A stretch of DNA of 64,000 nt from Aphrocallistes beatrix (Eukaryota; Porifera; Hexactinellida; Sceptrulophora; Aphrocallistidae), in NCBI GenBank assembly GCA_963281255.1, contig OY725506.1, forward strand, positions 186,001 to 250,000, read 5' to 3'. The stretch's first letter is position 1; every line of letters begins with the position of its first letter. The notes below the pieces were generated by a model. That model did no database searches, had not been told where the DNA came from, and saw only the letters and a program-made list of their open reading frames with translations. The translations under genes and the position numbers were made by a program. Positions 29,901 to 62,305 of the stretch are shown piece by piece.

Positions 29901-32900
29901 TTTTCCATTACAGTTTCTAGACGTGATATTCTGTAGTGAAAGGTGCATGCATCTCGTATACATTTGTCTTGACTCCTCGGACGATACCAGGCTGACACCT
30001 ATAAGTGTCTAGATAACCCCTGCTACATAATAATGTCTGCATTTGCACTACAGTTTCTAGACGTGATATTCTGTAGTGAAAGGTGCATGCATCTCGTATA
30101 CATTTGTCTTGACTCCTCGGACGAGGACGAGCATGTTCTCACCCGCTAAACCACTTCCTGTGCCACGATCCACTGACGTATATTACTAGTGGACATCACT
30201 GTTGAAAGAGATTAACATTCCAAACGACCCTTCTAGTTTCCAGGCACTGTTACTTATGCTACGTTCCAGGTTACCAATGACGACTAATCGCAGTGATGCA
30301 ATTGGCAGCCTGGAACGTAACATAGGTAACAGTGCCTGGATACTAGAAGGGTAGTTTGGAATGTTAATCAGAGACAGGACAACATAGTGGCATCTGTCCT
30401 GGTTGTTTAGTTGTGAATTTGATTGATTCTTCCTAGATTCAATTTCGACACTCGGGACGGGTTACAAGCTCTCGATTCTCTCCTTCGTTCATTGGCTGGG
30501 AGGATCACGCCACTTGTCACCTCTCTCAAATCAGCTGACCAGACTCTAGTCCAGGCCTCCATAGAAGGACTGATGAGGGTCGATTTGCTCGCTCGTACCC
30601 CTAAGGGGAAAGTCAGAATGGACAAAGAGAATAACTCGGTTGCTAAGTTCTTGAACAGGATACTAGGTATGTTGTTATATTAGCAACGATATGACGCTCT
30701 GGAATGTATTACTAATAATGTACAATTATATTCGTTACACAAAATTTGAACAATTCATTTCTGAACATCAAATATTGTGCCACTATCCCTCGACATAAGC
30801 TCACACCTTTCCGATATAAACCACTTTCAACCACATGCATAGTAACCATTTCTACTCATAGGAATGGAAGTCCATTTGCAGAACACAGTGTTCCAGTGGT
30901 TCCTGGACACATTTGAGTTTCTGGTGAGACAGGAGAAGAGACTGGGTCGCTGGGACGAAGGGATAGTGGAGATGGGAACCACTCTGGGGGAAGAAGTCGA
31001 GAGGGTTAAGGTGGAGGAGTTCTTGGGTATGTTTGGTTTTTACTTATTTTTGTTTACAATTCACTGTTTACGAATTAGTTTGTGTTTTATCTCTATATTT
31101 TTGAAGATTATATCAAATTTAATCACTTCTATTGTGCAATGCTATCTTCATGATATTATTGTGGTTGTTTGTTTATAATGTACTTCAGCCTGTAAGTAAA
31201 CAAGGATGTGTTGCCATATGTATCAATAATAAACAATTTGACGAGAAGACACAATCAACCATTTCTGCAACTAAAAGTTTCAAACCTTGTCTCTAGCATA
31301 TATTAATAAACGAAGATATTTATATCCTCTAACGAACTTAATAATGCCAAATTGTTGTTGTTATTGTTGACTTTAAGGAGGTGTGAAGTGTAGATTCAGT
31401 TCTCAAAGTAAATAGTTCAATAATTGCTATTCCTAGCCTAAATATAGATTACTCCTATTACAGTCCCTATACTATACTTAGCTATTTACGTCTGTATGGA
31501 ACCTCTATGTATGCGTATAAATAGTACACTTCTATTATTAGAATCGGCTAATAGACAAACAAACAAACAAACAAACAACAGCAATTCAATATGTAACCTC
31601 TTCTCCAATTATTAACAGTATAATGTTACTACATAATACTTGCAGTGGAGAGAAGCAATAGAAAGTTTGCATAGAAGAAACTGGTTTGACCAGTTATCGC
31701 TGTTCTACTGAATCTGGTGTGCTGCTAGGATCTTGTCTTACAAGCTCTCGCACTCAAATAAGGGTTCCTTAAATCTAAATTTATAGACAAACTTTACCTC
31801 TCCGAAATAAAAAGTTTGAGATTGTGTTTCTTGTCTTCGACAAAGGTAGTTTGGTATTTTCTCTAAGGATCTGTGTCTATTTATAGGACAAGTTGTTTGT
31901 TTTGGAGTTTGTTTGTGTCTGTGAGTGGAAGGCTGCGCTATTATTACTCCACTATTCTAGAACTTCATTCTTTTACGGATTCACTCACATATTATTTCCT
32001 TGTTTTATGTACCTAATCGACAAAAAATCAAAATTTTATATCGTATGTAGTTTCTCTTCATTCTAAATTTATAAAAAACTTTATATTCGAATATTTAGAT
32101 TGAAATGAATCGATTTTTGGTGAAAATTAACGTACAATTCGAATATTAGAAATTGAATAAAAATCTTATTTGTAATTAGAAAAAACGTAGACAAACTTTT
32201 TATTCACAAAACTTTACGTATATATTTGTTTTTACGAGCGGGAAGGAAACGGAATTCGGGAAACATACAAATATCTTGAGTATATACAAAATTTAAAACG
32301 AGATAAAAAACAATTTTAAAATTATAAACAATTTATCAAAACTAGAAATACATAAAATCACCATGGTTACAATGGCATCCAACCCATATCTCCTGCCTAA
32401 CAACGCAGCATCCCTCCTGGAATTCAAAGAACGCCTAGACATCAACCTACTCGACCAGGTCATCTCATGCATGTTCGAAGGGATGGGCGAGCACCAGCAC
32501 TTAGCTCAGCAGCTCCTAACCCAACTGAAAGAACACCCAGACGCATGGACCCGGGTCGACACCATCCTAGAATTCTCCAATAACGAACAAACCAAATTCT
32601 TCGCGCTTCAAATCCTGGAATCTGTCATTAAGTCCAAATGGAAAGCTCTGCCTCGAGAGCAATGCGAGGGGATTCAGAAGTACATCGTGGCGCTTATCAT
32701 CAAAATCTCCAGCGAGCAGGAAGAGATGGAGAAGCACAAAGTGTATCTGAACAAGCTCAACATCATCCTCGTGCAGATTGTGAAGCAGGAGTGGCCTAAG
32801 AATTGGCCGTCCTTCATCTCAGATATCGTGGGGGCCTCCAAGACTAACGAATCTCTCTGCCAGAACAACATGGTGATCCTGAAACTTCTCTCGGAAGAAG

Positions 32901-35900
32901 TTTTCGACTTTTCGACTGGTCAAATGACCCAAGCGAAAGCGAGACATTTGAAGGAGAGTATGTGTTCCGAGTTTTCTGAGGTTTTCAATCTTTGCGTTTA
33001 CGTAATGGACAATTCCGCCTCGTTTGGACTTGTTGAGGCAACTTTACAGACTCTCCTCAAATTCCTGAACTGGATTCCGCTTGGTTACATTTTTGAGACG
33101 AAACTATTCACCACGCTTATCTACAAGTTCCTACAGATCCCTAACTTCCGTAACGTGACATTGAAATGCTTGACAGAAATCGCGGGAATAACTAATGACA
33201 CCTATAATGAGCAGTTCCTACTTCTCTTCACACTCGTAACGAGTCAGCTGAAGCTAATGTTACCGCTGTCCACGAACATAAGAGAGGCGTACCAGGCTGG
33301 GAGGGATGATGAGCAGAATTTCATTCAGAATCTCGCGCTTTTCTTCAGTTCTTTCCTGAGGGAACACGGAGAACTCCTCGAATCAAAGGCAGAACTCCAC
33401 AACACGCTCCTAGAAGCTCTGCACTACCTGGTGCTTATCTCAGAAGTTGATGAGACAGAGATTTTCAAGATCTGCCTCGACTACTGGAACGCGTTGACAC
33501 AGAACCTTTACAAGCTCCGTTTCCGGACCATCGGGGTCTTATCAGGTCCAGGCTCAATGCACATCAGTAACGCTAGCACCCCCGGCATTGCCCTGTACGA
33601 AGACATCCTGTCCAAAGTCCGCCAGGTAATGATAGGCCGAATGTGTAAGCCTGAAGAGGTGTTAGTTGTCGAGAACGAGCAGGGAGAAGTTGTCCGTGAG
33701 TTCATGAAAGATACGGACGCAATAAACATGTACAAGACAATGCGGGAAACACTCGTTTACCTCACACACCTCGATTTTAATAACACCGAACACATCATGA
33801 CTGAAAAACTCGCGCGGCAAGTGGATGGGACTGAGTGGTCCTGGAAGAACCTCAACACTCTCTGCTGGGCCATCGGGTCTATAAGTGGGTCGATGCATGA
33901 GGATGATGAGAAGCGGTTTCTGGTGACGGTCATTAAAGAGTTGCTGTCGCTATGCGAGATGAAACGCGGGAAGGACAATAAAGCTATCATCGCCTCTAAC
34001 ATTATGTATATCGTAGGACAGTATCCGAGGTTCTTAAAGGCGCATTGGAAATTCCTCAAAACGGTCGTGAATAAACTTTTCGAGTTCATGCACGAAACAC
34101 ATGAAGGTGTGCAAGATATGGCTTGCGACACTTTTATTAAAATCGCACAAAAGTGTCGGAAACATTTCGTCGTTGTCCAACGTGGTGAAGCGGAGCCGTA
34201 TGTGGAGGAAATCCTGCACAACATTTCCGGCTTAATCTGTGACTTAGAACAACAGCAGGTTCACACCTTCTACGAGGCCGTGGGATACATGATCTCCAGT
34301 CAGATCGACGCAGAAATGCAGGAAAAGCTAATAATAAAGTATATGTCTCTTCCGAACCAAATATGGGAAGGAATTATCGGGCGTGCAACCAGGGATATTA
34401 GCACATTGCACGAACAGGAAATCATCAAACAATTGGCGCACATTCTTAAGACAAACGTTCGAGCATGCTCAGCTATTGGTCACCCGTTTATTACACAGTT
34501 AGGACGCATATACATGGATATGCTCAACATCTACAAAGTACTGAGCGAGAACATATCTCAAGCCATTACTACCAAAGGGCCGGACATAATGAAAGAGCCG
34601 ATTATCCGGTCAGTTCGCTCGGTTAAGAAAGAAACCCTTAAACTCATCTCGTCTTGGGTGTCCAAAGCCCAGGAGCCCGCTGTCGTGCGGGAGAATTTCC
34701 TTCCACCTTTACTAGGCGCCATTCTGTTGGACTACAACAAGAATGTTCCATCCGCTCGTGAACCGGAAGTCTTGAGTTGTGTCACTGCAATTGTAGATCG
34801 CCTGGAGGGGTTAGTAACAGAGGACATACCACAAATACTCGACTCGCTGTTTGAATGCACGCTTGAAATGATTAACAAAGATTTGGAGCAATACCCCGAG
34901 CATCGCGTTAATTTCTTCAAAATGATATATTCTATAAATAAATTCTGTTTCCCCGCTTTCCTACAAATCCCGCCTCAACAGTTCAAGCTATTATTAGACG
35001 CGATTATATGGGCCTTCAAGCACACGATGCGTAATGTGGCAGAGGTGGGACTATCGATTTTACAGGAACTTTTGAGAAACGTCGAATCGCTTGAAGCAAG
35101 TCAGTCTTTCTACCAAACATATTACCTAGACCTTTTGAACCATCTTTTCTCCGTTGCAACCGACCTGACTCATGCACATGGTTTGACCCTGCAATGCTCG
35201 ATTCTAGCTTACCTCTTTACCATAGTGGAAGATGGAAAAATCCAAGCGCCACTTTTCGATTCAATGGTGCTAACACAAGATCCCACGATGAATAATGTAC
35301 GGTTTGTGAAGGAGAACTTAGCCAACTTATTCCAGACGACATATCCACATATCCAACCGACACAATTGCAAGTGACAATTGAGGGTTTGTTCTCTTTTAA
35401 CCGAAATATTCCTGCGTTTAAAGACCATCTGAGGGACTTCCTGGTACAAATAAAGGAATTCACAGGAGAAGATGACTCGCAGCTTTACATTGAAGAGAAA
35501 GAGGCAGAGATTCGGAAGGCACAAGAAGAGAAACGGACCATTCAACTCGCTGTCCCCGGCATTATCAATCCACATGATCGACCTGACGATTCTATGGAAG
35601 CTTAGAGTTAGTGTTTCTTTTGAATCAAACTGTTTGTTAGCTGTGAAGTTTGTTAGTAAACAACTAACAAACAAACCAACATCAAAATTAGTTAAGTTTT
35701 AGCAAATTCCATTTTTGGGTACTTTATGCTTAATTAAGATATTTAGCACTGATTCATATTAAAACTTGATAAATTCCATTGACATATTATGGTAACCATG
35801 CTGTGAAGGCTGAGAGCAATGTTGGTCCCTCAAGGTATGGAATCAGTGTTAGTGATCAGGTAATTTGTGGATCTGTTGTGTTGAAAGAACTTATTAGGAT

Positions 35901-56900: not shown

Positions 56901-59900
56901 CACGTAATATTATGTACCAAATTGAAATTTTGCATTGATGCTCTCATCCATGACCAAATTATCAGAATAAATTATTAATTTACAAAATAAATAGGAGCCA
57001 TTTAATTAAAAAAGTATGAATATATATCAGGATTCATCTAGCCACTCCCTCAGGGGATTTTCTGATGTGAGAAGTATTGTATTGTGAATAAGTCCATGAC
57101 CAGATAGGACCCGAGCGAAAATGGAGCTAATCGATGAATTTCTTTGGTTGGAATCATGTTGTTGCGTATATTTTGCTAGTCTAACATTCTTGTTTTACAT
57201 AACCATCATTATAAGCAATGGAATTGAAAGCAATGAATTTTTATCAAAATGTCCAGTATCATTAATTCAGATTAGCATTTCAAGGAAAAGCTACATGTTT
57301 ACTATTCGCATTAGCATCACACTTTCTATTTGCTTACTAGCTTGACATTTCTTACATTTGTTACGGAATGTTTATTTTGTCTATTTTACGAATTTTGATT
57401 CACTTCCATTTTAAAACGAGTGTTTATCTTCCACAAAGCCACTTCCCTCTGATTATCTATAATTAATCCATTTAGATATAAATATTTGTCTCGCATCATC
57501 ATTTCTAGAATTTGATCAAGAAGACGGAATTTGGTACAACTTCTGCAGTTTGCATATTTACTTCATATGACTACGAAAGAACAGAAACTAATACAAACGA
57601 ATCATGCACCTTCAGGGTTAAACCTTGGATTTTCCACAGAAGTATTGAACAAGAATAAACTTCATTGATCTTAGTAAGATAGCTCTAGAGTCTAGATCTT
57701 GTTTTCACTCTCTGTGTATCCTAGACCCAATGTCACAACTGCTCCAGTTAAGTGTCAATCGACCGGACTTAAGTTATCTGTTATATACGTACAAATAATA
57801 TCTATTGAACTCCCTCCATTAACCTTAATATTAAATGCTAGAACTGTGAAACCCTGAGCTGATGTTCAGTTCAGCCTTGATGCCAATCCATATCCTCTTC
57901 ACCCACGTAATATTATGTGTCAAATATTGCATTGATGCTCTCATCCATAATCAAATTATTCAAATAAATTAAGACAAAATCAAACTGGAGCCAAAAGTAA
58001 AAAGTATGAATATAGACACACACACAGAGACACTGTCACATTTTAGTATATTATCTGAGATCTGAAGGCTTGAATGAATGGAGGTCTCCTTTCTATGTGT
58101 CTTTCTACATCAGCTCTGTACCTCTCCATGAGAGGGCGAGTTATCCACTCGTTCACATGGATGTACTTCTTTCTTCTTCTCAGCAGCTTTACAAGGATTG
58201 AAGTGAGGATTGCCAAGTTTGATAGAAATGCTATCACACCAACAATTCCTGTACAAATGCTCCGTATAACTCGACAGTAATAGTTTATCCTATATAGGAT
58301 AGTGATGAAGTTTCCTGGCACAAAATAGTTGATTGGAGTATTCGGGAGTACGTATTGTAGTAAACAGCTGCTGTTCTTTGTGATTTTAGTCAGGTTTTCG
58401 ATTGAAAGCATAACAACTATTATCAAACCGAATGTCAAGGTGAATAAGTAGATGGATCTTAAGATGCCAAATACCTTTGCTTCTCTTTTCTTCCTTTTAT
58501 ATTCTTGTGTCGTGGAATGCCACTTAGCTTCTTCGCTCATTCCTTTTAACAGAAGATAGAACTTCTTACTCGCATTCACGTAAACGCAAAAATCAAAAAG
58601 TGAAAATGGTAATTCCATCAGAAATTTAAAGTGCTGAGTAGGGAGGAAGAATTCTGTTAAAATTATGCAAACTAGCCTGAACAGGAAGTAACCAGAATAT
58701 CCTACTATCCATCTTCTGTATGGAACACTCAGATATGCTCTCCTCAGTACGATTAGGAACAAGTTCACTAGGATCGGTATAAGGAGTACTAAACTACTAC
58801 TAGCAACGAAAAAGACACCTAACTTCGTATTATACAAAATTTCACACGATTTATTTGTATTTGTATTTTCTACTGTCTCCTCGAGATAATATTCCTGACA
58901 CAATCCGAAAATTGAACATATATACTCAGTAGTACTTAGCAGAAGAGCTATAGCCTCGAAGCTGGAGATGATTATGATGAAGTTATAAATCAATGATTGA
59001 ATCTTGAGATTCTTTTTAACCTTGCTGAGATCGGTTGAAAAGATGGTTGTTGCTGGTATGTTCTTTATCCTCTGTGAAATCAGGATTTTTTGATGGATGA
59101 AGTATGGTATTGTGAATAAGGTCATGACCAGATAAGGAACGAGTGAAAATGAAGCTACTCGATAAATTTCTTTGGTTGGAATCATGTTATTGTGTATATT
59201 TTGCTAGAATCTAACATTCTTATTTATACATAACTATCATTATACGTAAGCAATGGAATTGAAAGCAATGAATATTTTCTCAACTACATTAAATAAGATG
59301 AGTTTATAATGAAACTTACAACCTTGATATTTCTCACATCCATTTATGAATGTTGTTTTTGTCTGGATCTTTAAATTTTGGTTCACTTTCATTTTTAAAA
59401 AGAGTGCTTTGTTCCACAAAGTCACTTCCTATTATCATTTCTAGAATTTAATCAAGTAAGACCGAATTTGGTCAATTTCTGCCAGTTTTTTTTGCCACAG
59501 TCACTTCATATCCTTACTATTAAAACTCGATTAATGTTTATATACGTATGTATATAATTGCAAAAAGACAAAACTAATTCTTCAGGGTTAAACCTTGGAT
59601 ATTCTAGAAACGGTAATTCCAATGTGGGTAGATTGCGTAACGATGATTCCGCTCATATACCACCAGACAATTCAACCATGTTTCCAAACTTTGCAATTCC
59701 AGAAACTGTGGGAGGAAATACCAGGATTTGATTTAGATTCAGAACACATGCAAATCAATGAAGGTCCTATTCCGTTTAATTTCAAAATCATCCCAGAAGG
59801 GAAGATATGCTGATAGAGAATGTTAGGTGCTCTTACATAATAAACTCAGAGGAAACGGTTAATATTATTGGCGTTGTAGCGTACGAAACATGTCTTCGAT

Positions 59901-61937
59901 ACTCAACGTGGTGGAATGTCCACTCGTGACACCTATGGTCATAATCATGCAGCAATTCCAGAAGTAAGCTTTACTGCAGAACTGAAGGTGTATGCCATAA
60001 AGAGAGCCAAAAATGAGATTTTTGTTCCTCCGCTTGAGTTTGTCGAGAATTATCTCAGATAAATAATGGCACAATATAAACAAGATCTTATTGATTTAAA
60101 TTTTGAGATGAAAATGGAGTTTATTCCTGGATACTTTTGTGCAAAAATCGACGAAATGCAAAAAATTAAAAATTTGTTAGAGATAAAATAGGTATTTGGA
60201 AGGAAGAAACATAGAAATGTTGACATTTATTTTAATACAAATCTAAATTAAAAATAGATTACAAGTCATGTGTTAAAAACAGCATAGGGATATGGAATGT
60301 TACATCTATAAGTTTAATCATAGTTATTCAAGAGGGATGTTTCCAGATCATTGATAATCACCTGTTTCCTCCTTAACAGTATCATGATGATACTAACAAA
60401 AATAACTAAGCCAGATAGGCTCACCATCGTGATCAAGATAATACTTCCTATATTCACAATGATGCTACAGTATTCCCTTACCAACTTGCATATCTCATCT
60501 AATCTTCCTGGTACAGTGAAGGAGACAGGAACGTTTGGGAATGCATATTGGAATATACACTTGCTGTATTGGACACTGTTAGCAAAAGCTATTATAGAAT
60601 TCATTAGGCACATGATAACTCCAACTCCGAATACGAGCAATGTAAGATTTCTAGTCACATGAAATACTTTGGCGATTCTTTCCTTTCTTCTGTAGTCCTC
60701 TGGTGTGGAATGAAACTTCGCTTCAGTACTCAATCCTTTAAGCAGAAGATAAAAATTCCTGCTCAACTTTACGTAAGCATAGAAATCGAGAATAGTGAAA
60801 GGCAGCACAAAAAATTCAACAAAGTACCTGCTAACAGTGAATTGAGACATCAAGCTCGGAATAGATATTCTCGCGATAATGTATATTGCGAATCTTTTAT
60901 ACCAGAAAGTGTATGGTGCATTTAAGTAAGCTCTCCTTAGAACGATCAGGAATAAGTTGATTAGGGCTGGCATTGCGACAAGAATATAGTGAGCTAATGC
61001 GAGAAAAAGGCTGAACATATGTATACCATTGTCTCTGTTGATGCACGAGGCACTTGTATTCAGTGGCTTATGTTGCTGTGTTGAGTTACCGGGAGAGAGA
61101 TATTTGAAATATATGCTACTGATGCTCCATAATATGCACATTACAGCCTCATAGCAGTAAATCAGTAGAACAAAACTATGTATCAAGGATTTTATTTGAA
61201 GATTTTTCTTCACTGTTTCTAGGTCAATTCTAAAATTGGAATGGTCTTGTAACTTCTGGATCTGACGTGAAATTCGGCATTTTTGGTGTACAAAGAATAT
61301 TATGGTCAATAGGACCATAATTAAATAAGGGATGAGAGCGAAAGCGATAACTTTTTGAATTCCATCAGTGACTGAAACCATTTTGAAGTATTTTGATAAT
61401 TTTATATACATAAAGTACTTTCCTTCTTTTATACGTTTAAGGCCGATAATCAACTCATTAATTTTGTATCTTTTTCCCTGCTGAATAGTCAAATTACTTA
61501 CGCAAGGTTGTGTAACTTAATTATACTTCTACTTAGTATGCTTTCAATCAATTGAATTGGACCATCAGGTTTTCAATAACATGAAATTACACCACTTCAC
61601 AGCATTTTCAATTCTGATCAAAGTATAACAATTCTTTGTCGCATGTTCATACATCCCAACTTATTCATCATGACGGGGCATCATAGGGAAGTATTTTACA
61701 CGTAATCCCAAAAATAATACTTAATTTCTAAATTTAGCACTATTACTATTTATATAAGGACGCCACTGATTTTACGATGGATGAAAACAAATACCAACGA
61801 CCCAATTTGTTCTCAAGAATAATAGTCTGTATTTGAAATCGTTATAATCCATGGTAAGAATAATGTATCTGTCCTTCTCCAAGCAATAAAGCTCAAAAGC
61901 TTCATGATGATTGGCGATCGCTAGGGAGCCAATTCTA

Positions 61938-61976
<39 letters not shown>

Positions 61977-62305
61977 ATTGACGTTATTGTTATTGTTGTT
62001 GACTTCCTTACACTGATTTTCCTCTTTTAGGAGATCCCTTATTTGGCACTGGTTCAACCCGTCTAAGCACGATTCGTGTTCTCCGCGGGTTATCCTGGGA
62101 GGAAGTGCTGCAAAGACTTCCACAGGACGATACGGAGGCCGAAAACGAGGGTATCTACCTGAGTTTGAAGGCGCAGCATGGGAAGTATTACTGTTTGTTA
62201 GTTCTAGCGACGACAGACCCTGGCGCTTTCGTTGTCTATCGTCCGAATATTGGACGAGTCAATGCTCTGATGAGATCTTCTGATTTACAGCAGACTTACA
62301 GAAAG
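14912..62305 (+). CDS. SBNO: Strawberry notch homologue (SBNO), 19 exons visible, 3' end off window
   Basis: SBNO proteins are nuclear DExH-box helicase-like regulators acting downstream of Notch and other pathways. Exons: 14912-15013, 15697-16267, 16363-16964, 17494-17770, 18284-18424, 18488-18808, 19071-19323, 19430-19576, 19707-19897, 23380-23621, 24102-24342, 24875-25037, 25175-25287, 27227-27456, 27677-27903, 28432-28680, 30437-30666, 30862-31026, 62031-62305. The phases are consistent throughout, giving 1580 residues so far. Residues 1 to about 560 are acidic and low complexity, with AT-hook-like KRGRPRK. The helicase core follows: Walker [11 protein letters not shown] (about 660-669), DECH (775-778), [32 protein letters not shown], and motif-VI-like [11 protein letters not shown] (about 1297-1307). 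Exon 19 (LSWEEV ... GIYLSL ... VVYRPNIG) matches the family C-terminal domain. The stop is outside the window. Long introns 9, 13 and 18 contain other genes. Identity is secure; the exon 11 donor (CG|GTACTC) is the weakest boundary. Confidence 0.95.
15255..15357. mobile_element. MITE, CATACTTG family, copy 1 (SBNO intron 1)
   Basis: The left end reads CATACTTGTCAACC and the right end is its imperfect reverse complement (TTGGCAAGTAT). Internal GGGACATTACTTTCAACTT matches copy 2 in inverted orientation. Related copies are at 18004-18252 and 28162-28376. Confidence 0.7.
15453..15650. mobile_element. Rearranged pogo/mariner-like MITE (SBNO intron 1)
   Basis: Compared with the clean copy at 24467-24637, bases 15453-15572 are the right half in the same orientation and 15573-15650 are the left half inverted. 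As a result the terminal motif GGAGTCGACTGTA occurs twice in direct orientation. Confidence 0.7.
18004..18252. mobile_element. MITE, CATACTTG family, copy 2 (SBNO intron 4)
   Basis: Ends CATACTTTCCAACTGTCC and GGTTGACATGTATG are inverted. The interior is built of CCCGC-TAAAA units (five TTCCCGCTAAAA-type repeats). It fills half of intron 4 and stops about 30 bases before the exon 5 acceptor. Confidence 0.75.
19590..19700. repeat. GCCACTCTACCACTAT-type tandem repeat, SBNO intron 8
   Basis: Short imperfect repeats of GCCACTCTGCCACTATACCACT. The complement resembles the unit of the ATG3 intron 3 minisatellite (GTGGCAGAGTGGC), so the same simple motif has expanded in two genes. Confidence 0.6.
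20024..21088 (-). CDS. Orphan multi-pass (7TM) membrane protein, nested in SBNO intron 9
   Basis: A 354-residue single-exon gene antisense to SBNO. There are about seven hydrophobic spans, the first at residues 17-45 after a short N-terminus, with basic loops after TM1, TM3, TM5 and TM7, so N-terminus outside and C-terminus inside. It carries SRKLYLKL after TM5, matching [10 protein letters not shown] in the array proteins at 43283-61381, and has the same spacing of spans, so I place it as a distant member of that family. A Lys/Glu/Thr loop ([11 protein letters not shown]) separates TM6 and TM7. A TATATAAA lies about 40 bases upstream of the ATG, indicating its own promoter. I do not recognise the family; ligand and function are unknown. 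Confidence 0.8.
   Translation of the reverse strand: MILFHRHYFFENYSGIHITIYVFTFINLILSLVIMGLGSLWLVYYVRKSYFVTLKIRSYKDPRNHNQNEILTNCKVEFVKSTLISIISFLEINMHLTIWVWSVVKSFYWYEKNDKDEHNSGDYVRIISASLPLILITLVGSLVCILTSYLSKAYSVKREVEFREKVLFFWIFVQLVPIICFIPVLKHLGFEHLKFFHRVFYICVFVNQIVVYSVLSRKLYLKLVWRKMDAYFEDITLHRKLIKMCRDFKRGSILYLVALILGLVYLILATLECINHIQTKETKETKGKITSEDKLLNNVLRLVNILFLSLLFGVSLWLHLSVFVSAVRRLFTKSSVFKLQNKHKQNYVPLIGEN
21696..23133 (-). CDS. CFAP119/C1a-32 (CLAMP)-like protein, 2 exons, nested in SBNO intron 9
   Basis: Exons (minus): 23133-22582 and 22100-21696, phase 0 join, 318 residues. Exon 1 starts MKRTSPTK, then a Pro/Glu-rich stretch and a helical domain with [20 protein letters not shown] and [12 protein letters not shown]. 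This reminds me of the flagellar central-apparatus C1a-32 (CLAMP) domain of CFAP119/CCDC189, where a FxxEHGF-like helix and an HFxLYKYVF segment are typical. Exon 2 has three SKEIVPE-type repeats and a Lys/Glu coiled-coil tail. If correct it is a ciliary axoneme protein. The family call rests on pattern memory only; gene structure is firmer than function. The donor GAAGAA|GTAAGT and acceptor TTTTGTAG are good. A hAT MITE sits in its intron. Confidence 0.6.
22365..22530. mobile_element. hAT-type MITE
   Basis: Left end CAGCGGTTTTCAACCTTTTT and right end CAGGTTGGGAACCACTG form terminal inverted repeats of the widespread hAT 'CAGxGGTTCCCAACC' type, with GTGGACCCCC repeats inside. It lies in the intron of the CFAP119-like gene, 51 bases from the splice donor. 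No clear 8-bp target duplication is visible. Confidence 0.85.
23644..23870. mobile_element. Foldback MITE with ~85-bp inverted repeats (SBNO intron 10)
   Basis: The left arm TACCGAAACTGGGGCGAC... is repeated in inverse at the right end ...GTCGCCCCAGTTTACGGTA, with almost uninterrupted pairing for about 80 bases and a ~65-base loop. TA at both termini suggests a mariner/Tc1-type target site. It starts 23 bases after the exon 10 donor. Confidence 0.85.
24467..24637. mobile_element. Pogo/mariner-like MITE, complete copy (SBNO intron 11)
   Basis: Perfect or near-perfect 26-base terminal inverted repeats beginning CAGTCGACTCCGCTTAATAG, flanked by TA on both sides. 171 bases, non-coding. It is the reference for the rearranged copy in intron 1. 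Confidence 0.88.
25037..25088. repeat. (TTTG)n at SBNO exon 12 donor
   Basis: The array begins in the splice donor itself (AAG|GTTTGTTTG), as at SND1 exon 15 where the donor runs into (GATT)n. Confidence 0.9.
25671..26801 (-). CDS. Orphan 7TM membrane protein, nested in SBNO intron 13
   Basis: Single exon, antisense to SBNO; 376 residues from the first ATG (26801), or 356 from the second (26741). A TATATATA run lies only a few bases upstream of 26801, so transcription probably starts later and the second Met ([11 protein letters not shown]) is likelier. About seven hydrophobic spans. The TM3-TM4 junction reads RYLNHPYAR, comparable to [11 protein letters not shown] of the array family; TM5 is followed by a long basic loop; a Cys-containing loop ([10 protein letters not shown]) precedes TM7. 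The overall layout matches the array proteins, so it is a divergent relative. Function not recognised. Confidence 0.8.
   Translation of the reverse strand: MYSCFLQTYKSLSLQNRTLKMKSIKITENLLFDIVLFILVCTVLLIITWVVYFIIDCHRLCKQYKLCQQKPLLHPLHADVQYLSKTRKLYNLKTHITKYVLMITISVLEIFNIIWWVASSEVQTALSHHNHTMYSNCSHKNTIALYHAYPFIIPLHCIRIFLTIAYYNMLCILSRYLVARYLNHPYARTMLKYLIWVVVQFLIIGILTINSTIIVSLYMFPLLILIDWILLVKDTKLLSTVLASNLRDIMLYSDNRTFYNRQFAAYRFYRFARLVLIVSNFFLFLTIMFFDMGQLYNNSFYCGFDKVYRRGIDQLYSGRYLIEPTVGVMVLLYSIAMSLPLWMLTLYPIVLKCVKRFREKSDEYRYNYEKLGLIIK
27997..28145. mobile_element. Tigger/pogo-like MITE (SBNO intron 15)
   Basis: Left CAGTGGAACTTTGTTGATACGAA and right end complement CAGTAAACTCATTAATACGG form imperfect inverted repeats with TA outside both. 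Internal 'GATAATACGAAC' phrases are typical of this group. No open frame. Confidence 0.65.
28162..28376. mobile_element. MITE, CATACTTG family, copy 3 (SBNO intron 15)
   Basis: Ends CATACTTGCCAATTGTCCCG and (complement) CATACATGTCAACTTGAG. The interior is CCCGC-rich like copy 2. It stops about 55 bases before the exon 16 acceptor. Confidence 0.75.
28845..30123. repeat. 140/141-bp satellite, nine full units plus a partial (SBNO intron 16)
   Basis: Units start at 28845, 28985, 29125, 29265, 29406, 29546, 29686, 29827 and 29968, each with CTTGACTCCTCGGACG; a truncated tenth starts at 30108. Two unit types differ at TTTGCACTACAG (140 bp) versus TTTTCCATTACAG (141 bp), and at GGTGCATGC versus GGTTCATGC. 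Identity is otherwise nearly complete. Order: A A A B A A B B A, with the trimer (A-TTC, A-TTC, B-TGC) repeated, so a small higher-order structure exists. Confidence 0.95.
30210..30369. mobile_element. Foldback element with ~61-bp arms (SBNO intron 16)
   Basis: Arm 30210-30270 (GATTAACATTCCAAAC...CGTTCCAGG) pairs with 30309-30369 with few mismatches and a loop of about 38 bases. It lies 67 bases before the exon 17 acceptor. As RNA it would make a long, microRNA-precursor-like hairpin, but a MITE is the simpler reading. Confidence 0.85.
31027..32362. other. Start of SBNO intron 18 / upstream region of XPO1
   Basis: No gene seen. Contains a short (AAAC)n at 31554-31578, one CTATTTATAG decamer (31877-31886) and very AT-rich sequence from 31980. 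The XPO1 promoter must lie here if the gene is expressed independently. The start codon context is CACCATGG. Confidence 0.5.
32363..35605 (+). CDS. XPO1: Exportin-1 / CRM1, intact and intronless, nested in SBNO intron 18
   Basis: XPO1 is the RanGTP-dependent nuclear export receptor for leucine-rich NES cargo. A single 1080-residue frame (human about 1071) is colinear with the family from start to stop: [25 protein letters not shown] (importin-beta N-terminal region), [73 protein letters not shown], the NES-groove segment [14 protein letters not shown] with Cys531 (the position equivalent to the leptomycin B target Cys528), [38 protein letters not shown] and the C-terminal [12 protein letters not shown] ... 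[11 protein letters not shown]. No introns, in contrast with most animal XPO1 genes. It is in the same orientation as its host gene. ATGGTTACAATGG offers two start Mets (residues 1 and 4). Confidence 0.96.
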   Translation: MVTMASNPYLLPNNAASLLEFKERLDINLLDQVISCMFEGMGEHQHLAQQLLTQLKEHPDAWTRVDTILEFSNNEQTKFFALQILESVIKSKWKALPREQCEGIQKYIVALIIKISSEQEEMEKHKVYLNKLNIILVQIVKQEWPKNWPSFISDIVGASKTNESLCQNNMVILKLLSEEVFDFSTGQMTQAKARHLKESMCSEFSEVFNLCVYVMDNSASFGLVEATLQTLLKFLNWIPLGYIFETKLFTTLIYKFLQIPNFRNVTLKCLTEIAGITNDTYNEQFLLLFTLVTSQLKLMLPLSTNIREAYQAGRDDEQNFIQNLALFFSSFLREHGELLESKAELHNTLLEALHYLVLISEVDETEIFKICLDYWNALTQNLYKLRFRTIGVLSGPGSMHISNASTPGIALYEDILSKVRQVMIGRMCKPEEVLVVENEQGEVVREFMKDTDAINMYKTMRETLVYLTHLDFNNTEHIMTEKLARQVDGTEWSWKNLNTLCWAIGSISGSMHEDDEKRFLVTVIKELLSLCEMKRGKDNKAIIASNIMYIVGQYPRFLKAHWKFLKTVVNKLFEFMHETHEGVQDMACDTFIKIAQKCRKHFVVVQRGEAEPYVEEILHNISGLICDLEQQQVHTFYEAVGYMISSQIDAEMQEKLIIKYMSLPNQIWEGIIGRATRDISTLHEQEIIKQLAHILKTNVRACSAIGHPFITQLGRIYMDMLNIYKVLSENISQAITTKGPDIMKEPIIRSVRSVKKETLKLISSWVSKAQEPAVVRENFLPPLLGAILLDYNKNVPSAREPEVLSCVTAIVDRLEGLVTEDIPQILDSLFECTLEMINKDLEQYPEHRVNFFKMIYSINKFCFPAFLQIPPQQFKLLLDAIIWAFKHTMRNVAEVGLSILQELLRNVESLEASQSFYQTYYLDLLNHLFSVATDLTHAHGLTLQCSILAYLFTIVEDGKIQAPLFDSMVLTQDPTMNNVRFVKENLANLFQTTYPHIQPTQLQVTIEGLFSFNRNIPAFKDHLRDFLVQIKEFTGEDDSQLYIEEKEAEIRKAQEEKRTIQLAVPGIINPHDRPDDSMEA
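35606..37838. other. XPO1 3' flank with repeat remnants and an orphan 7TM-gene 5' flank
   Basis: No gene. Near 35907-35950 is CAGAAGTATTGAAGAAGAATAAACTT, which recurs near 44745 and 57640 beside 7TM genes. 36188-36265 has a hAT-like end (CAGGGCTGTCCAACT, GGGCCGCA). 36590-36985 is a probable non-autonomous element ending in ATTAATCGAGTTTTAATAGT. From about 37000 to 37480 the sequence follows the upstream flank of the 7TM genes (AATGAATATTTTATCA, TGTTCCACAAAGCC, CACTTCCAGGGTT), but no 7TM coding region is attached. 37538 carries CAGAGGCGTAGCTAGG, a hAT-like end. Confidence 0.55.
38739..42089 (+). CDS. Transposase-like protein with 50-copy VVERATQL repeat
   Basis: A frame of 1116 residues. Residues 13-412 are 50 copies of an 8-residue unit VVER(A/P)TQL, encoded by a 24-bp minisatellite. 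The conserved-looking protein begins near Met at 40032 ([11 protein letters not shown]), about 685 residues. It has Cys/His clusters (CSGC, CHVC...C, CSKCGKF), then [20 protein letters not shown] followed by [20 protein letters not shown], and [14 protein letters not shown]. The Asp, Asp-CxxC, His and Glu order fits an RNase-H-like DDE transposase with a C2 insertion; that is inference. The acidic tail [11 protein letters not shown] ends inside the right inverted repeat. No host function is suggested. Family not identified. Confidence 0.75.
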   Translation: MSKFFEILLYKLVVERVTQLVVERATQLVVERATQLVVERATQLVVERPTQLVVERATQLVVERPTQLVVERATQLVVERATQLVVERPTQLVVERATQLVVERATQLVVERATQLVVERATQLVVERATQLVVERPTQLVVERPTQLVVERATQLVVERPTQLVVERATQLVVERPTQLVVERATQLVVERPTQLVVERATQLVVERATQLVVERPTQLVVERATQLVVERHTQLVVERATQLVVERATQLVVERPTQLVVERATQLVVERATQLVVERPTQLVVERATQLVVERATQLVVERPTQLVVERATQLVVERPTQLVVERATQLVVERPTQLVVERATQLVVERATQLVVERPTQLVVERATQLVVERATQLVVERPTQLVVERATQLVVERATQLVVERATQLVVERALKFYQIHFKVEISDMTKPKVLCSGCRTRLANLETGKLTLEKFEKDRKNLEILPIIEDQQYGTRRITGCTSDNRCHVCQINGSCLNNYMVKLKTHGPKPGRPLEQSPCRTMCSKCGKFLENHNDKFCRNILKHPHSSSEAGKHFAERVEARGFTSKLAAGYIKDTLKKDIHSNPCKPLIDLNHPFDANNRLAITTIKYDGRKSPVLKQLSIESARDIQRLGHLGLGKHSYWELGRILRRDGIVFPSGGIKEAWDEKWSVFGSIFTPITLQMICRENTKNPMPTPFGFCTDIEHLLNIITHNQSDKVSRLKLQIDGGREFLKMSLNIVSMNPGSIYSPTPNSVLSNFVIAMGHGLENYQNLKELFSFPSIQKLFLINAPVQISCDFKVAALIVGIQQASSKYPCPYCLWRNGTSCTGVSNQSRMREEMMNDLAKKHHNVINEPFIHWSESVMEKIALAPLHILLGLVNRLFSESKPNEKATNKKDRQLYKLHCMALCKYNVFRSEYWNGTLEGNSCSRLLDHLDDIPFPASSVCFINALKTLKQVKDKCLGMVRKSGWQDSIQAFREAWRDTGLPWSLKSHILSDHYEEYLTRFENDANAGAALSSEQSGEMLHSRLQKVWDLRFKTRAENPLFSQRLVDCMVTYNYNLNWDRAQRSLENTDEEANNTQEFESESNEHDEERIELHNWLTDSENSDESDSD
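38773..39990. repeat. 24-bp in-frame minisatellite, 50 units
   Basis: Units encode VVERATQL or VVERPTQL, the only common difference being GCT versus CCT in codon 5; one unit has CAT (His) and one GGA in place of AGA on its edge. The length is a multiple of 3, so both strands stay open; the 412-residue minus-strand frame is an artefact of this. Confidence 0.97.
42810..43282. other. Spacer between transposon and first 7TM gene
   Basis: No gene. It includes the array's 3' flanking repeat (TGCATCCAGTCATTCCC, CCATGGCTGGATCCAACCC), which recurs near 45365 and in decayed form near 57030. Confidence 0.5.
43283..44422 (-). CDS. Array 7TM protein 1 (MIP subtype)
   Basis: 379 residues, single exon, starting [10 protein letters not shown]. 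Predicted spans: about 11-31, 63-91, 124-147, 161-182, 184-203, 238-261, 303-333. Basic loops follow TM1, TM3 ([12 protein letters not shown]), TM5 ([12 protein letters not shown]) and TM7 (KLLRRRKKY), giving N-out/C-in like a GPCR. The first outer loop has a glycosylation sequon and Cys (NKSC, 111-114); the loop before TM7 has Cys273 and the [12 protein letters not shown] motif. The tail ends [24 protein letters not shown] lies about 45 bases upstream of the ATG. No DRY, NPxxY or insect gustatory TYxxxxxQF signature is present, so I do not assign a family. Probably a surface receptor or channel; function unknown. Confidence 0.85.
   Translation of the reverse strand: MIPKEDIYRVALFSFVPYLVMTIFTIPYFVHQKIQILQRIKNIPATTIFATDLSKVKKNLKIQSLIYNFIVIISSFEALCCLLLTVGNICTSFDYRLDDPVIVRVVNTNTNKSCTFQYQPETFMFIQASESLVFLLPILVNLFLIVLRRAYLSVPYRRWIVGYSGYFLFRLVYIILSAYFIVTQFFYFALELPFLVFDLYVSLKVSKKFYLLLKGMSEEAKWHSTPQEYKQKQRITKTFAIFQSIPLFAFILGLLLVAAKSIQDLTGITNEYCLVQYLFPNDPISFTIPENIIHISDIISHGCSIIIRICNVILGVIAFLLNLPILTSILVKLLRRRKKYIHVNEWITRPLMERYRADVERHIERRPPFIQAFRSHIIY
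44423..45481. pseudogene. 7TM-gene 5' flank and a TM6-region fragment
   Basis: 44455-44760 is the shared upstream flank of the family. At 44999-45107 a ~110-base fragment matches the TM6 region of other members (compare 52630-52740: TTATTGATTGGA, AATGTTTTTGTTGTTC), embedded between pieces of 3' flank. It is a broken copy with no usable frame. Confidence 0.7.
45482..45740 (-). pseudogene. 7TM pseudogene with internal deletion
   Basis: The 5' end starts [14 protein letters not shown] and continues to KVKKN, then joins directly to the C-terminal tail (ATGGAGAGGTACAGAGCTGATG). About 880 bases coding for TM2 to TM7 are missing, and the tail is out of frame, giving a stop within five codons. The join falls at a short shared AT(G). 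Its upstream flank resembles that of the MIP subtype. Confidence 0.85.
45741..46469. other. 7TM upstream flank plus hAT-like remnant
   Basis: 45780-46230 repeats the family upstream flank. 46313-46460 is a partial copy of the hAT-like MITE seen complete at 53947-54229 (GCGAGCGAA, TTTTGATGCATTAAAATCAGACC). It ends where the P-like transposase begins. Confidence 0.55.
46470..48557 (-). pseudogene. Decayed THAP/P-element-like transposase (THAP9-like)
   Basis: Exon 1 (48557-48402) encodes [15 protein letters not shown] ... and exon 2 starts at 48321 with VCINHF; together they make a full C2CH THAP zinc finger ending in the family's AVPSIF motif. Downstream on the same strand, frames at 48321-47926, 47929-46838 and 46859-46470 carry P-superfamily features: [21 protein letters not shown], a DNYPLN segment, and [26 protein letters not shown] cut here as motifs ([18 protein letters not shown]). 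Two frameshifts, one near 47928 and one in a G-run near 46850, break the frame. P transposases are GTP-dependent DDE enzymes; this copy is presumably dead. Not recognised as a host gene. Confidence 0.8.
48558..49173. other. Spacer between the P-like element and 7TM gene 2
   Basis: No gene. AT-rich. From about 48930 there is a repeat-like stretch (AGGTGTGAAAATTTCGC, TTCTTCAATCAATTCGG) whose end resembles 36910-36930. The block ATGGATGTCAATTGTTATTTATTG at 49116 recurs at 52132 and 55246, marking the 3' side of three array units. Confidence 0.5.
49174..50271 (-). CDS. Array 7TM protein 2 (MD subtype), short tail
   Basis: 365 residues, single exon, starting [15 protein letters not shown]. Same span layout and core as protein 1 ([34 protein letters not shown]). 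The C-terminus stops at MERYRAGFD, lacking the final ~22 residues ([16 protein letters not shown]) of its paralogues, so the tail is truncated and carries a new end. The 5' leader AATTCTACAACAACATG is shared with the genes at 52280 and 55371, with TATATAAA upstream. Whether the tail loss matters is unknown. Confidence 0.82.
   Translation of the reverse strand: MDSTFDEQIYHIISKVASFALVPYLIITVLTIPYFVHQKIQNSQRMKNIPAATILSIDLSKVKKNLKIQSLVHNFIIIISSFEALCILLITVGIISTSFDYRLVSPLSMRVVNTNTNKSCNFRCQSGTFMFIQASESLVFLLPILLNLFLIVLRRAYLSVPYRRWIVGYSGYFLFRLVYIILSAHFIVTQFFYFALELPFLVFDFYVSFKVSRKFYLLLKGMSEEARLHWKKEYKEKRRASIIFKIFQPITLFIFSLSLILVVAESIRECTHLTNYHCFIQYLFPNYPISFTIPYNILHASGQIRYYSFIIGEICSGILGVMAFLSNLAILTLILVKLVKRRNKYNNVNKWATRPLMERYRAGFD
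51175..51330. repeat. Degenerate ATTCGAACTAACGACTAC tandem repeat
   Basis: About six units of 25-29 bases containing ATTCGAACTAA(T/C)G(A/C)CTAC. Unequal unit length and drift show an old array. Not CRISPR: there are no spacers. Confidence 0.75.
51627..51691 (+). pseudogene. XPO1 3' fragment with internal deletion
   Basis: ACTTATTCCAGAC matches 35326-35338 of XPO1, then about 38 bases are missing, and AATTGGGGTTTGTTCTCTTTTA...AAATATTCC...AAGACC matches about 35377-35425. It is preceded by GTCAGCATTTAGTCATGTG, shared with the second fragment at 55002. Confidence 0.75.
52280..53425 (-). CDS. Array 7TM protein 3 (MD subtype)
   Basis: 381 residues, single exon, starting [15 protein letters not shown]. 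Full-length core and tail ([35 protein letters not shown]; ends [11 protein letters not shown]). The first extracellular loop reads [16 protein letters not shown], with sequons at NQS, and differs strongly from the paralogues, as does the start of TM3. The 5' flank has TATAAATAAAT and the AATTCTACAACAACATG leader. The unit extends at least to 54000 on the right and is close in sequence to the 49174 unit. Confidence 0.85.
   Translation of the reverse strand: MDSTFNEQINKVASFALIPYLIITVFTIPYFVHQKIQISQRIKNIPATTIFSTDLSKVKKNLKIQSLVYNFIIIISSFEALCCLSITFGNMCTSFDYRFNDLVIVRVFNTNTNQSCNYYGKTGNYIFIQTGNSIPFLLPILLNLFLIVLRRAYLSVPYRRWIVGYSGYFLFRLVYIILSGYFIVTEFFYFALELPFQAFDFYVLLKMSRKFYLLLKGMSEEAKRHSTPQEHKEKQRTTKTFAIFQSITLFAFILGLILVVAESIRDSTHLTNGYCFVQYLFPNNPISFTIPENIIHTSHIIYEGCSIIIGICNGIVGVIAFLLNFAILTLILVKLLRRRKKYIHVNEEITRPLMERYRADVERHIERRPPFIQAFRSQIIY
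53947..54229. mobile_element. hAT-like MITE, most complete copy
   Basis: Left end CAGAGGCGTAGCTGCAAGG, right end complement CAGTAGCGGCTCCAC; interior includes GCGAGCGAAGCGAACAAATA. Partial copies or ends are at 37538, 46313 and 51372. Confidence 0.65.
55002..55146 (+). pseudogene. XPO1 3' fragment, 145 bp
   Basis: Matches XPO1 35251-35395 without gaps, with about seven substitutions by eye (for example GGTTCTAACACAATATCCCAC versus the parental GGTGCTAACACAAGATCCCAC). The frame remains open by chance but is cut on both sides by unrelated sequence. No promoter or start is implied. Confidence 0.9.
55371..56513 (-). CDS. Array 7TM protein 4 (MD subtype)
   Basis: 380 residues, single exon, starting [15 protein letters not shown]. 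Core and tail as in protein 3. The first outer loop is shortened and rearranged ([21 protein letters not shown]) and TM3 opens with [15 protein letters not shown] instead of [17 protein letters not shown]3 reads [16 protein letters not shown], identical to protein 1 except one residue, although the N-terminus is of the other subtype; this suggests exchange between paralogues. Leader AATTCTACAACAACATG; the usual TATA is weaker (GATAAATAA). Confidence 0.85.
   Translation of the reverse strand: MDPTIYHRISKVAAFALIPYLIIAVFTIPYFVHQKIQNSQRIKNIPATTIFATDLSKVKKNLKIQSLIYNFIIIISSFEALCSLLITVGTICTSFDFCKQDLKVRIVNTNTNKSCNLYSQTRTFEFAKTSGSLVFLLPILLNLFLIVLRRAYLSVPYRRWIVGYSGYFLFRLVYIILSAYFIVTQFFYFALELPFLVFDIYVLSKVSKKFYLLLKGMSEEAKWHSTPQEYKQKQRTTKTFAILQSITLFTFIFCLIIGAAESILELTYLTNGYCLVQYLFPNIPISFTIPENIIHTSHIIFDGCLIMLGISNGILGVIAFLFNLAILTSIIVKLLRRRKKYIHVNEWITRPLMERYRADVERHKERRPPFIQAFRSQIIY
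56514..58042. pseudogene. 7TM relic and flanks
   Basis: 57062-57157 (minus) is the first ~32 codons of a MIP-subtype gene (ATG at 57157, MIPTKEI...), directly abutting 3' flank sequence, so the rest of the gene has been deleted. 57170-57620 is its upstream flank, and 57640 has the TATTGAACAAGAATAAACTT repeat. No intact gene. Confidence 0.7.
58043..59185 (-). CDS. Array 7TM protein 5 (MIP subtype, divergent middle)
   Basis: 380 residues, single exon, starting [15 protein letters not shown]-terminal 70 residues and the last 60 are almost identical to the paralogues, and [12 protein letters not shown] is retained. TM4-TM5 ([21 protein letters not shown]), the Cys-rich first loop ([16 protein letters not shown]) and the region from TM6 to TM7 ([21 protein letters not shown]) differ widely. 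One sequon (NKS) is kept. TATAAATA and AATGTTAGATTCTAG upstream match protein 1. The mosaic pattern points to conversion at the ends or selection for new ectodomains. Confidence 0.85.
   Translation of the reverse strand: MIPTKEIYRVASFSLVPYLVMTLFTIPYFIHQKILISQRIKNIPATTIFSTDLSKVKKNLKIQSLIYNFIIIISSFEAIALLLSTTEYICSIFGLCQEYYLEETVENTNTNKSCEILYNTKLGVFFVASSSLVLLIPILVNLFLIVLRRAYLSVPYRRWIVGYSGYFLFRLVCIILTEFFLPTQHFKFLMELPFSLFDFCVYVNASKKFYLLLKGMSEEAKWHSTTQEYKRKKREAKVFGILRSIYLFTLTFGLIIVVMLSIENLTKITKNSSCLLQYVLPNTPINYFVPGNFITILYRINYYCRVIRSICTGIVGVIAFLSNLAILTSILVKLLRRRKKYIHVNEWITRPLMERYRADVERHIERRPPFIQAFRSQIIY
59186..60313. other. Region with decayed coding-like segments
   Basis: 59220-59600 is the family upstream flank, interrupted near 59517 by the ACTATTAAAACTCGATTAAT repeat end. 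From 59600 to 60190 short plus-strand frames look protein-like but are broken: segments ending at stops near 59735 and 59814, another with [18 protein letters not shown], then [19 protein letters not shown] ending at 60063, and a 41-residue frame at 60066-60191 ([15 protein letters not shown]). I do not recognise the source; it may be a mobile or viral relic. Confidence 0.4.
60314..61381 (-). CDS. Array 7TM protein 6 (divergent member)
   Basis: 355 residues from the ATG at 61381 ([14 protein letters not shown]), chosen because it aligns with the paralogues and TATATAAA lies about 30 bases upstream; an upstream extension exists but overlaps the TATA. Family signatures are kept: [51 protein letters not shown]. 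The first loop has sequons NST and NTS and a Cys. The tail is short ([19 protein letters not shown]) and lacks the [11 protein letters not shown] block. This is the oldest-looking member of the array and links it to the two intron 9/13 genes. Confidence 0.82.
   Translation of the reverse strand: MVSVTDGIQKVIAFALIPYLIMVLLTIIFFVHQKCRISRQIQKLQDHSNFRIDLETVKKNLQIKSLIHSFVLLIYCYEAVMCILWSISSIYFKYLSPGNSTQQHKPLNTSASCINRDNGIHMFSLFLALAHYILVAMPALINLFLIVLRRAYLNAPYTFWYKRFAIYIIARISIPSLMSQFTVSRYFVEFFVLPFTILDFYAYVKLSRNFYLLLKGLSTEAKFHSTPEDYRRKERIAKVFHVTRNLTLLVFGVGVIMCLMNSIIAFANSVQYSKCIFQYAFPNVPVSFTVPGRLDEICKLVREYCSIIVNIGSIILITMVSLSGLVIFVSIIMILLRRKQVIINDLETSLLNNYD
61382..62030. other. End of SBNO intron 18
   Basis: No gene. 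A (GTT)n microsatellite runs at about 61940-61977, followed by the acceptor CCTCTTTTAG before exon 19. Confidence 0.6.
62031..62305 (+). CDS. SBNO: SBNO exon 19 (C-terminal domain), after a 31-kb intron
   Basis: Listed separately because it establishes the giant intron. The acceptor CCTCTTTTAG precedes 62031. The exon completes the Gly codon left at 31026 (phase 1) and continues the SBNO C-terminal domain: SWEE, an acidic [20 protein letters not shown] and LQQTYRK. It ends in phase 0 at a GTTTGT donor. Further SBNO exons are expected beyond 64000; none is seen at 62306-64000. Confidence 0.9.

Follow-up and report, generated by a model that had tools for sequence, protein, structure and literature searches.

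The SBNO gene of the sponge Aphrocallistes beatrix is very probably one functional gene, spliced in cis, whose last two introns are giant and house nested, mostly single-exon genes. Rebuilt from the sequence, it comprises 19 exons that run from an ATG at position 15703 of the window (the whole 64,000-nt stretch of DNA analysed, C20:186001-250000, in a genome of 100.5 Mb and 28 contigs) to a stop at C20:299877, so that the gene spans ~98 kb (C20:201703-299877). Its spliced frame of 1697 aa contains no internal stop. Intron 17 contains an intact gene for the export receptor XPO1, an array of seven-transmembrane (7TM) genes and two transposons, and intron 18, which extends 51,110 bases from 62305 to C20:299416, contains further single-exon genes. 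The reading of a single gene with a 31-kb, gene-bearing intron, proposed in an earlier note on this DNA, is favoured by matching phases, GT-AG splice sites, a strong acceptor at 62031, a single locus, the absence of N and the terminal exon.

Structure of the SBNO host gene

All 18 introns have GT-AG ends, the phases match at all 18 junctions and 17 introns end in TAG. At the junction across intron 17 the donor TTCTTGG/GTATGT and the acceptor TTTTAG/GAGATCCC (slashes mark splice sites) meet in a split glycine codon, which is begun in phase 1 at 31026 and completed at 62031, and the frame then remains open to 62305; this in-frame splice bears out the junction originally suggested, and a recount changes the numbers given to its two exons from 18 and 19 to 17 and 18 of 19. 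In a leave-one-out comparison the acceptors of introns 17 and 18 rank 1 and 4 of 18, and their donors rank 12 (tied) and 2 of 18. With 6.6% of the 3530 GT sites in the window scoring as well, the donor of intron 17, at 31027, is no better than average.

The predicted protein matches all three expected domains in the order AAA_34 (446.8 bits, 305 of 306 profile positions), Helicase_C_4 (317.2 bits, 270 of 271 positions, ending at residue 1433) and the SBNO alpha/beta domain PF25373 (119 of 119 positions, starting at residue 1473). The same C-terminal domain had been thought to continue across the junction at intron 17; the exon at 62031 does open the alpha/beta domain, but the junction itself, at residue 1452/1453, falls in a linker outside the Pfam matches. 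PF25373 is complete only once exon 62031-62305 is joined to an exon 51 kb away, with a score of 90.3 bits for the spliced protein against 42.4 and 38.7 for the two exons taken singly, and its division at positions 1-76 and 76-119 between exons 18 and 19 implies the second and larger of the giant introns. The earlier note had ended SBNO too early, before this terminal exon. An ORF for ribosomal protein S8e lies just downstream of the gene (C20:301469-301909).

A genome-wide profile search placed PF13871 and PF25373 above their cut-offs at one locus only, that of SBNO, and a PF25373 match on C10 that stays below threshold, at 17.8 bits and with one stop, is taken as chance. There is no N within C20:176001-369499 (193 kb), and with regard to a possible assembly break the exon at 62031 belongs to the SBNO locus as assembled. 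Relatives of SBNO were sought in viral contigs and none was confirmed; comparison of the SBNO C-terminus with PDB gave a single match, at E 0.37.

Table 1. Features of the SBNO locus and related copies. Positions refer to the window unless another contig or locus is named; strands are relative to the window.
Feature	Position	Strand	Remarks
SBNO exons 1-8	15703-16267, 16363-16964, 17494-17770, 18284-18424, 18488-18808, 19071-19323, 19430-19576, 19707-19897	+	in-frame splice, GT-AG
SBNO exons 9-16	23380-23621, 24102-24342, 24875-25037, 25175-25287, 27227-27456, 27677-27903, 28432-28680, 30437-30666	+	in-frame splice, GT-AG
SBNO exon 17	30862-31026	+	ends in phase 1
SBNO intron 17	31027-62030	+	31,004 bases, gene-bearing; donor TGG/GTATGT, acceptor TTTTAG/GAG
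SBNO exon 18	62031-62305	+	linker and PF25373 positions 1-76 of 119; ends in phase 0
SBNO exon 19, terminal	C20:299416-299877, outside the window	+	PF25373 positions 76-119; gene end
Single-exon ORF, SBNO intron 8	20027-21088	-	354 aa; membrane-protein-like by eye
CLAMP-domain ORF, SBNO intron 8	22495-23166	-	PF14769, 34.8 bits, cut-off 22.7
Single-exon ORF, SBNO intron 12	25674-26801	-	376 aa; membrane-protein-like by eye
XPO1 (CRM1)	32363-35605	+ (same as SBNO)	one exon, 1080 aa from ATG 32363
DNA transposon	37839-42809	+	819-nt TIRs, 100% identical, 37839-38657/41991-42809
7TM T1	43286-44422	-	379 aa
7TM relic pieces, one or more copies	44995-45740	-	tblastn
P-element/THAP-like transposase relic	46470-48321	-	three overlapping, apparently broken frames; THAP match below cut-off
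7TM T2	49177-50271	-	365 aa
7TM T3	52283-53425	-	381 aa
Captured XPO1 piece	55002-55146	+	copy of 35251-35395, 138/145 identical
7TM T4	55374-56513	-	380 aa
7TM relic, N-terminal piece	57056-57157	-	tblastn
7TM T5	58046-59185	-	380 aa
7TM T6	60317-61411	-	365 aa, most diverged
XPO1 piece copies elsewhere	C1 (L025:5003-5179); C8 (L026:5001-5174, 8190-8360)	opposite to 7TM neighbours	

Genes and transposons nested in SBNO

By our count 16 non-transposon ORFs of at least 186 aa are nested in SBNO: the 354-aa, CLAMP and 376-aa ORFs of introns 8 and 12, XPO1, the 7TM genes T1-T6, two copines, three related ORFs and one ORF of 196 aa. The other 14 introns are free of genes; 13 of these measure 63-532 bases and one, intron 15, measures 1756, in keeping with the earlier statement that such introns are mostly below 0.8 kb. 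The bulk of intron 15 is a 140-bp tandem repeat at 28845-30124, with ~9 copies that are 98% alike.

XPO1 and the six 7TM ORFs lie wholly inside 31027-62030. The identity of XPO1, as first assigned, is upheld by six CRM1/importin-type Pfam families over cut-off, with IBN_N, Xpo1, CRM1 repeats and CRM1_C matched at full length, and by a best PDB match to Exportin-1 (1645 bits, residues 33-1098 of the open frame). A search with tblastn and the ORF list recovers the six intact 7TM genes that had been counted. The three relics reported with them are consistent with decayed tblastn pieces at 44995-45132, 45485-45740 and 57056-57157, which are pieces and not a count of original copies.

T1-T5 are 60-81% identical to one another and T6 is 37-39% identical to the others; at the nucleotide level, repeated stretches within the array reach 97% likeness over 300 nt. 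An AlphaFold model of the 7TM protein contains seven long helices, with a mean pLDDT of just 66, and the best Foldseek matches are class A GPCRs (e.g. 6osa) and microbial rhodopsins, the best at E 0.025 and none at or below 0.001. Pfam scans of T1 and T6, two of the six members, gave no match. We call the predicted proteins receptor-like and do not assign them to any class of GPCR. The family is large: with one member as query the genome yields 110 matches, pieces included, and on C4 there is a dense cluster of them. Values of dS are 0.11-0.20 among T1-T4 and 0.54-0.57 between T5 and T1-T4, and saturated to T6, and dN/dS among T1-T4 is 0.64-1.34, which is high for receptors under plain constraint. 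For T2 against T3 and T4 (49177-56513) the ratio exceeds one (1.27, 1.34), which suggests either fast diversification or relaxed constraint.

Both transposons described earlier in intron 17 are present, one a long-TIR element and the other a P-element-like relic. The termini of the former are CACGGGTG/CACCCGTG, and its ORF (38739-42089) reads through a minisatellite at 38775-39989 whose 24-bp unit occurs ~50 times; a Pfam scan of a 695-aa part of its protein gave no match. Several of the 77 genome matches to this family, which are pieces and not copies, are 97-99% identical, and the element has thus been active recently. A copy of its protein, 98% identical, lies at C8:1012259-1014343, inside a cluster of close relatives of the 7TM genes (C8:1010237-1023018).

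Intron 18 holds two single-exon copines of 542 and 560 aa, three related ORFs of 301, 305 and 186 aa, and smaller ORFs. The 301- and 305-aa members have TRAF-/Sina-type zinc-finger matches below cut-off (217 of the 305 aa scanned) and the 186-aa member has no zinc-finger match; three of the smaller ORFs scanned against Pfam gave nothing over cut-off. Within the same intron, on the minus strand at C20:255000-267000 (L002, L003), repeated short ORFs encode similar small lysine-/glycine-rich proteins that are apparently multi-exon, and one of these proteins, when scanned, had no Pfam match. The CLAMP gene of intron 8 may have a further exon in the ORF at 21696-22100. The 354- and 376-aa ORFs of introns 8 and 12 align to the 7TM array at 18-20% only and are absent from the genome matches of the array member used as query.

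An XPO1 piece among the array units

A genome search for XPO1 returned a single full copy along with four short fragments, and also a distant match (26% identity) that is probably another karyopherin. The fragments are copies of a single piece of the gene (~35251-35426), found once in the window at 55002 (145 bp), once on C1 and twice on C8. The starts of all four differ from XPO1 position 35251 by no more than 3 nt. Their neighbours are 7TM genes or relics on the opposite strand; on one side of the C1 fragment the neighbour is just a piece of a relic, and of the two copies on C8 the second adjoins a broken 7TM copy. Flanking sequence beside the piece is also common to the copies. In the window copy, six of the seven differences from XPO1 occur at third codon positions. 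The common breakpoint, the 7TM surroundings and the shared flank point to one capture that was copied along with an array unit. Because the only full XPO1 found is in SBNO intron 17, the simplest reading is that the piece was captured here and that units then spread to C1 and C8, and we infer this order while allowing that the reverse is possible.

Origins of the fragments as old exons or retrocopies were considered, and a single captured piece is simpler given the common start and the 7TM surroundings. The possibility that XPO1 is a retrogene with an intron-containing parent elsewhere was likewise set aside, the genome search having found one full copy only. Kinase-domain matches provide a comparison: 115 of the 130 listed span 250 or more of the 263 positions without a change of frame, and one of the 115 has a stop, in a count made by eye for which 127 of 460 candidates were scored and unbroken ones were favoured. 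With most of the kinase domains listed being free of interruptions, there is nothing out of the ordinary in an intronless XPO1 in this genome, and we do not claim retroposition.

Proposed transcription across the nested genes and alternative explanations

In the mechanism that we propose, introns 17 and 18 would have grown by taking in and tandemly duplicating other, mostly single-exon genes, along with transposons. The array would have expanded by tandem duplication, one lineage of units bearing the internal XPO1 piece. Each nested gene would be an independent unit driven by a promoter of its own, with the 7TM genes directed against the host and XPO1 along it, and the host pre-mRNA would be read through them and its long introns removed in cis. 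Since XPO1 is on the host strand, SBNO transcription would have to cross the end signals of XPO1. There are four AATAAA/ATTAAA hexamers before XPO1, at 31228-32156, and three within 1 kb after it, counts that stand without comparison to a chance expectation, and because of these hexamers premature transcript ends are possible. It seems unlikely that the SBNO mRNA arises from separately transcribed pieces or through a special device, such as suppressed polyadenylation at XPO1 or recursive splicing, that would couple expression of SBNO, XPO1 and the array across one 98-kb unit.

Transcription of SBNO in separate pieces, with the RNAs joined in trans or translated apart, is in itself very improbable. 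It would accord with the presence of XPO1 on the same strand, with the polyadenylation-like hexamers inside intron 17 and with the trans-spliced leaders reported for Aphrocallistes vastus in extracts of its genome account (PMC10282587). However, a strong 3′ splice site precedes the exon at 62031, whose first base falls inside a codon, and the far exons both have normal splice sites and phases. Leader trans-splicing, moreover, adds short leaders and not coding parts of one gene, which counts against joining in trans. We hold it equally doubtful that SBNO is truncated, with its functional end soon after 31026 and the far exons as unused leftovers. The hexamers at 31228-32156 could supply such an end and the helicase parts are already complete by exon 17, but the far exons are open, PF25373 is matched over its whole length, and neutral decay would probably have broken these exons unless the split were very young. 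Mis-assembly of the array block into SBNO, which the likeness of its repeats might invite, is extremely unlikely given the unbroken 193 kb, the two successive introns with the same pattern and the last three exons in correct order and strand, with the only full XPO1 also inside.

The age of the arrangement bears on truncation. We simulated neutral evolution of the 738-nt coding tail past intron 17 with 11 indels per 88 substitutions, a ratio taken from the array spacers, and the probability of the tail staying intact by chance was 0.14 at d=0.02, 0.05 at 0.03, 0.008 at 0.05, 7e-5 at 0.10 and ~0 at 0.28. Half of the array dS corresponds to d of ~0.055-0.28, and the spacers of the closest array copies, 4.7-9.8% apart, correspond to ~0.025-0.05 per copy. 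The argument presupposes an array that duplicated inside the SBNO intron itself, and gene conversion could distort dS; on that premise the simulation favours a tail that is still used, but it says little for a split no older than the most recent duplication.

Comparison with other introns and other nested genes

Classical nested genes of fly and human, including the gene within a gene and the genes of the NF1 intron, are independent, lie in an intron and are often antisense to a host that usually holds one to three of them. Unlike these cases, the SBNO intron holds a tandem array and an essential gene on the host strand. Fly and human nested genes are also mentioned in extracts of the account of the ctenophore Hormiphora californensis (PMC8527503), which reports 2357 nested genes from 1654 hosts; among these are genes nested twice over and genes on the host strand, and transposons flank many of them. 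The ctenophore resembles the present case in having nested intronic genes, some on the host strand; the host shown as an example in its Figure 4 contains four genes, whereas SBNO has 16 nested ORFs.

The closest comparison is with the glass sponge A. vastus, for which extracts of the genome account (PMC10282587) report 2432 nested genes (12.4%), 12,409 single-exon transcripts and 19,578 genes, with lineage-specific tandem duplicates in clusters that are mostly single-exon. The two sponges are alike in their small genomes, many single-exon genes, nested genes and tandem clusters. They differ in that introns of A. vastus average 516 bp on one compared scaffold (PMC10282587), whereas in the present genome blocks of genes occupy two introns in a row, 31 and 51 kb long. 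A nested case involving SBNO or XPO1 was not seen in those extracts (PMC10282587), and a literature search found no relevant report on nested genes in SBNO. For O. minuta, the other glass sponge tabulated there, the same source gives 9872 single-exon transcripts and 83 annotated nested genes, and its authors blame annotation programs for such low counts of nested genes (PMC10282587), and extracts of another report give a mean intron of 341 bp and an absence of Wnt (PMC10280926). Three matches to Frizzled (PF01534) in the present genome are in line with O. minuta (PMC10280926); the Wnt profile PF00110 has no match in the genome and none in 14 control genomes either, and so lacks a working positive control. 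Genome size, gene content and the mostly uninterrupted kinase domains make a glass sponge the probable host. A hexactinellid genome is also treated by Schultz et al. (PMC10232365, in extracts).

Kinesin-motor pieces served as a control within the genome, the gaps between consecutive pieces of one domain (profile step -35 to 60, <100 kb) being used as a proxy for introns. Most gaps (28 of 32) are below 2 kb and the median of all 32 is 359 bases, while the remaining four, in two genes, are 15.6-24.7 kb; at the gap of 24.7 kb ~50 profile positions are passed over, and an exon may lie hidden there. One of the two genes, at C14:1868588-1934781, has a motor domain that extends across 66 kb and is interrupted by three gaps of 15-25 kb. 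The control gaps indicate that giant introns are not confined to SBNO. No ATG-started ORF of at least 200 aa occurs in the whole of the 15.6-kb gap on C14 or in 20.0 of the 20.8 kb of the gap on C8, a search that multi-exon genes could escape, and the C8 gap contains mariner-like pieces by eye. On this small control, being packed with long ORFs may be special to SBNO. The rarity that the earlier note implied was nonetheless overstated, as nested and single-exon genes are common in A. vastus (PMC10282587, in extracts) and other giant introns seem present in this genome.

Implications

Given the nested genes of A. vastus and Hormiphora californensis, SBNO is best seen as a large example of a known nested arrangement and not as a new kind; its unusual point is the scale of the nesting. 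Automatic gene models could easily split such a gene in two or three, which is a warning for annotation. The XPO1 piece carried in array units offers a marker with which the spread of the array can be traced. SBNO is a clear test case for the tolerance of very long introns in a compact animal genome: this conserved host has to be read across a growing receptor array and across a gene on its own strand that elsewhere is essential.
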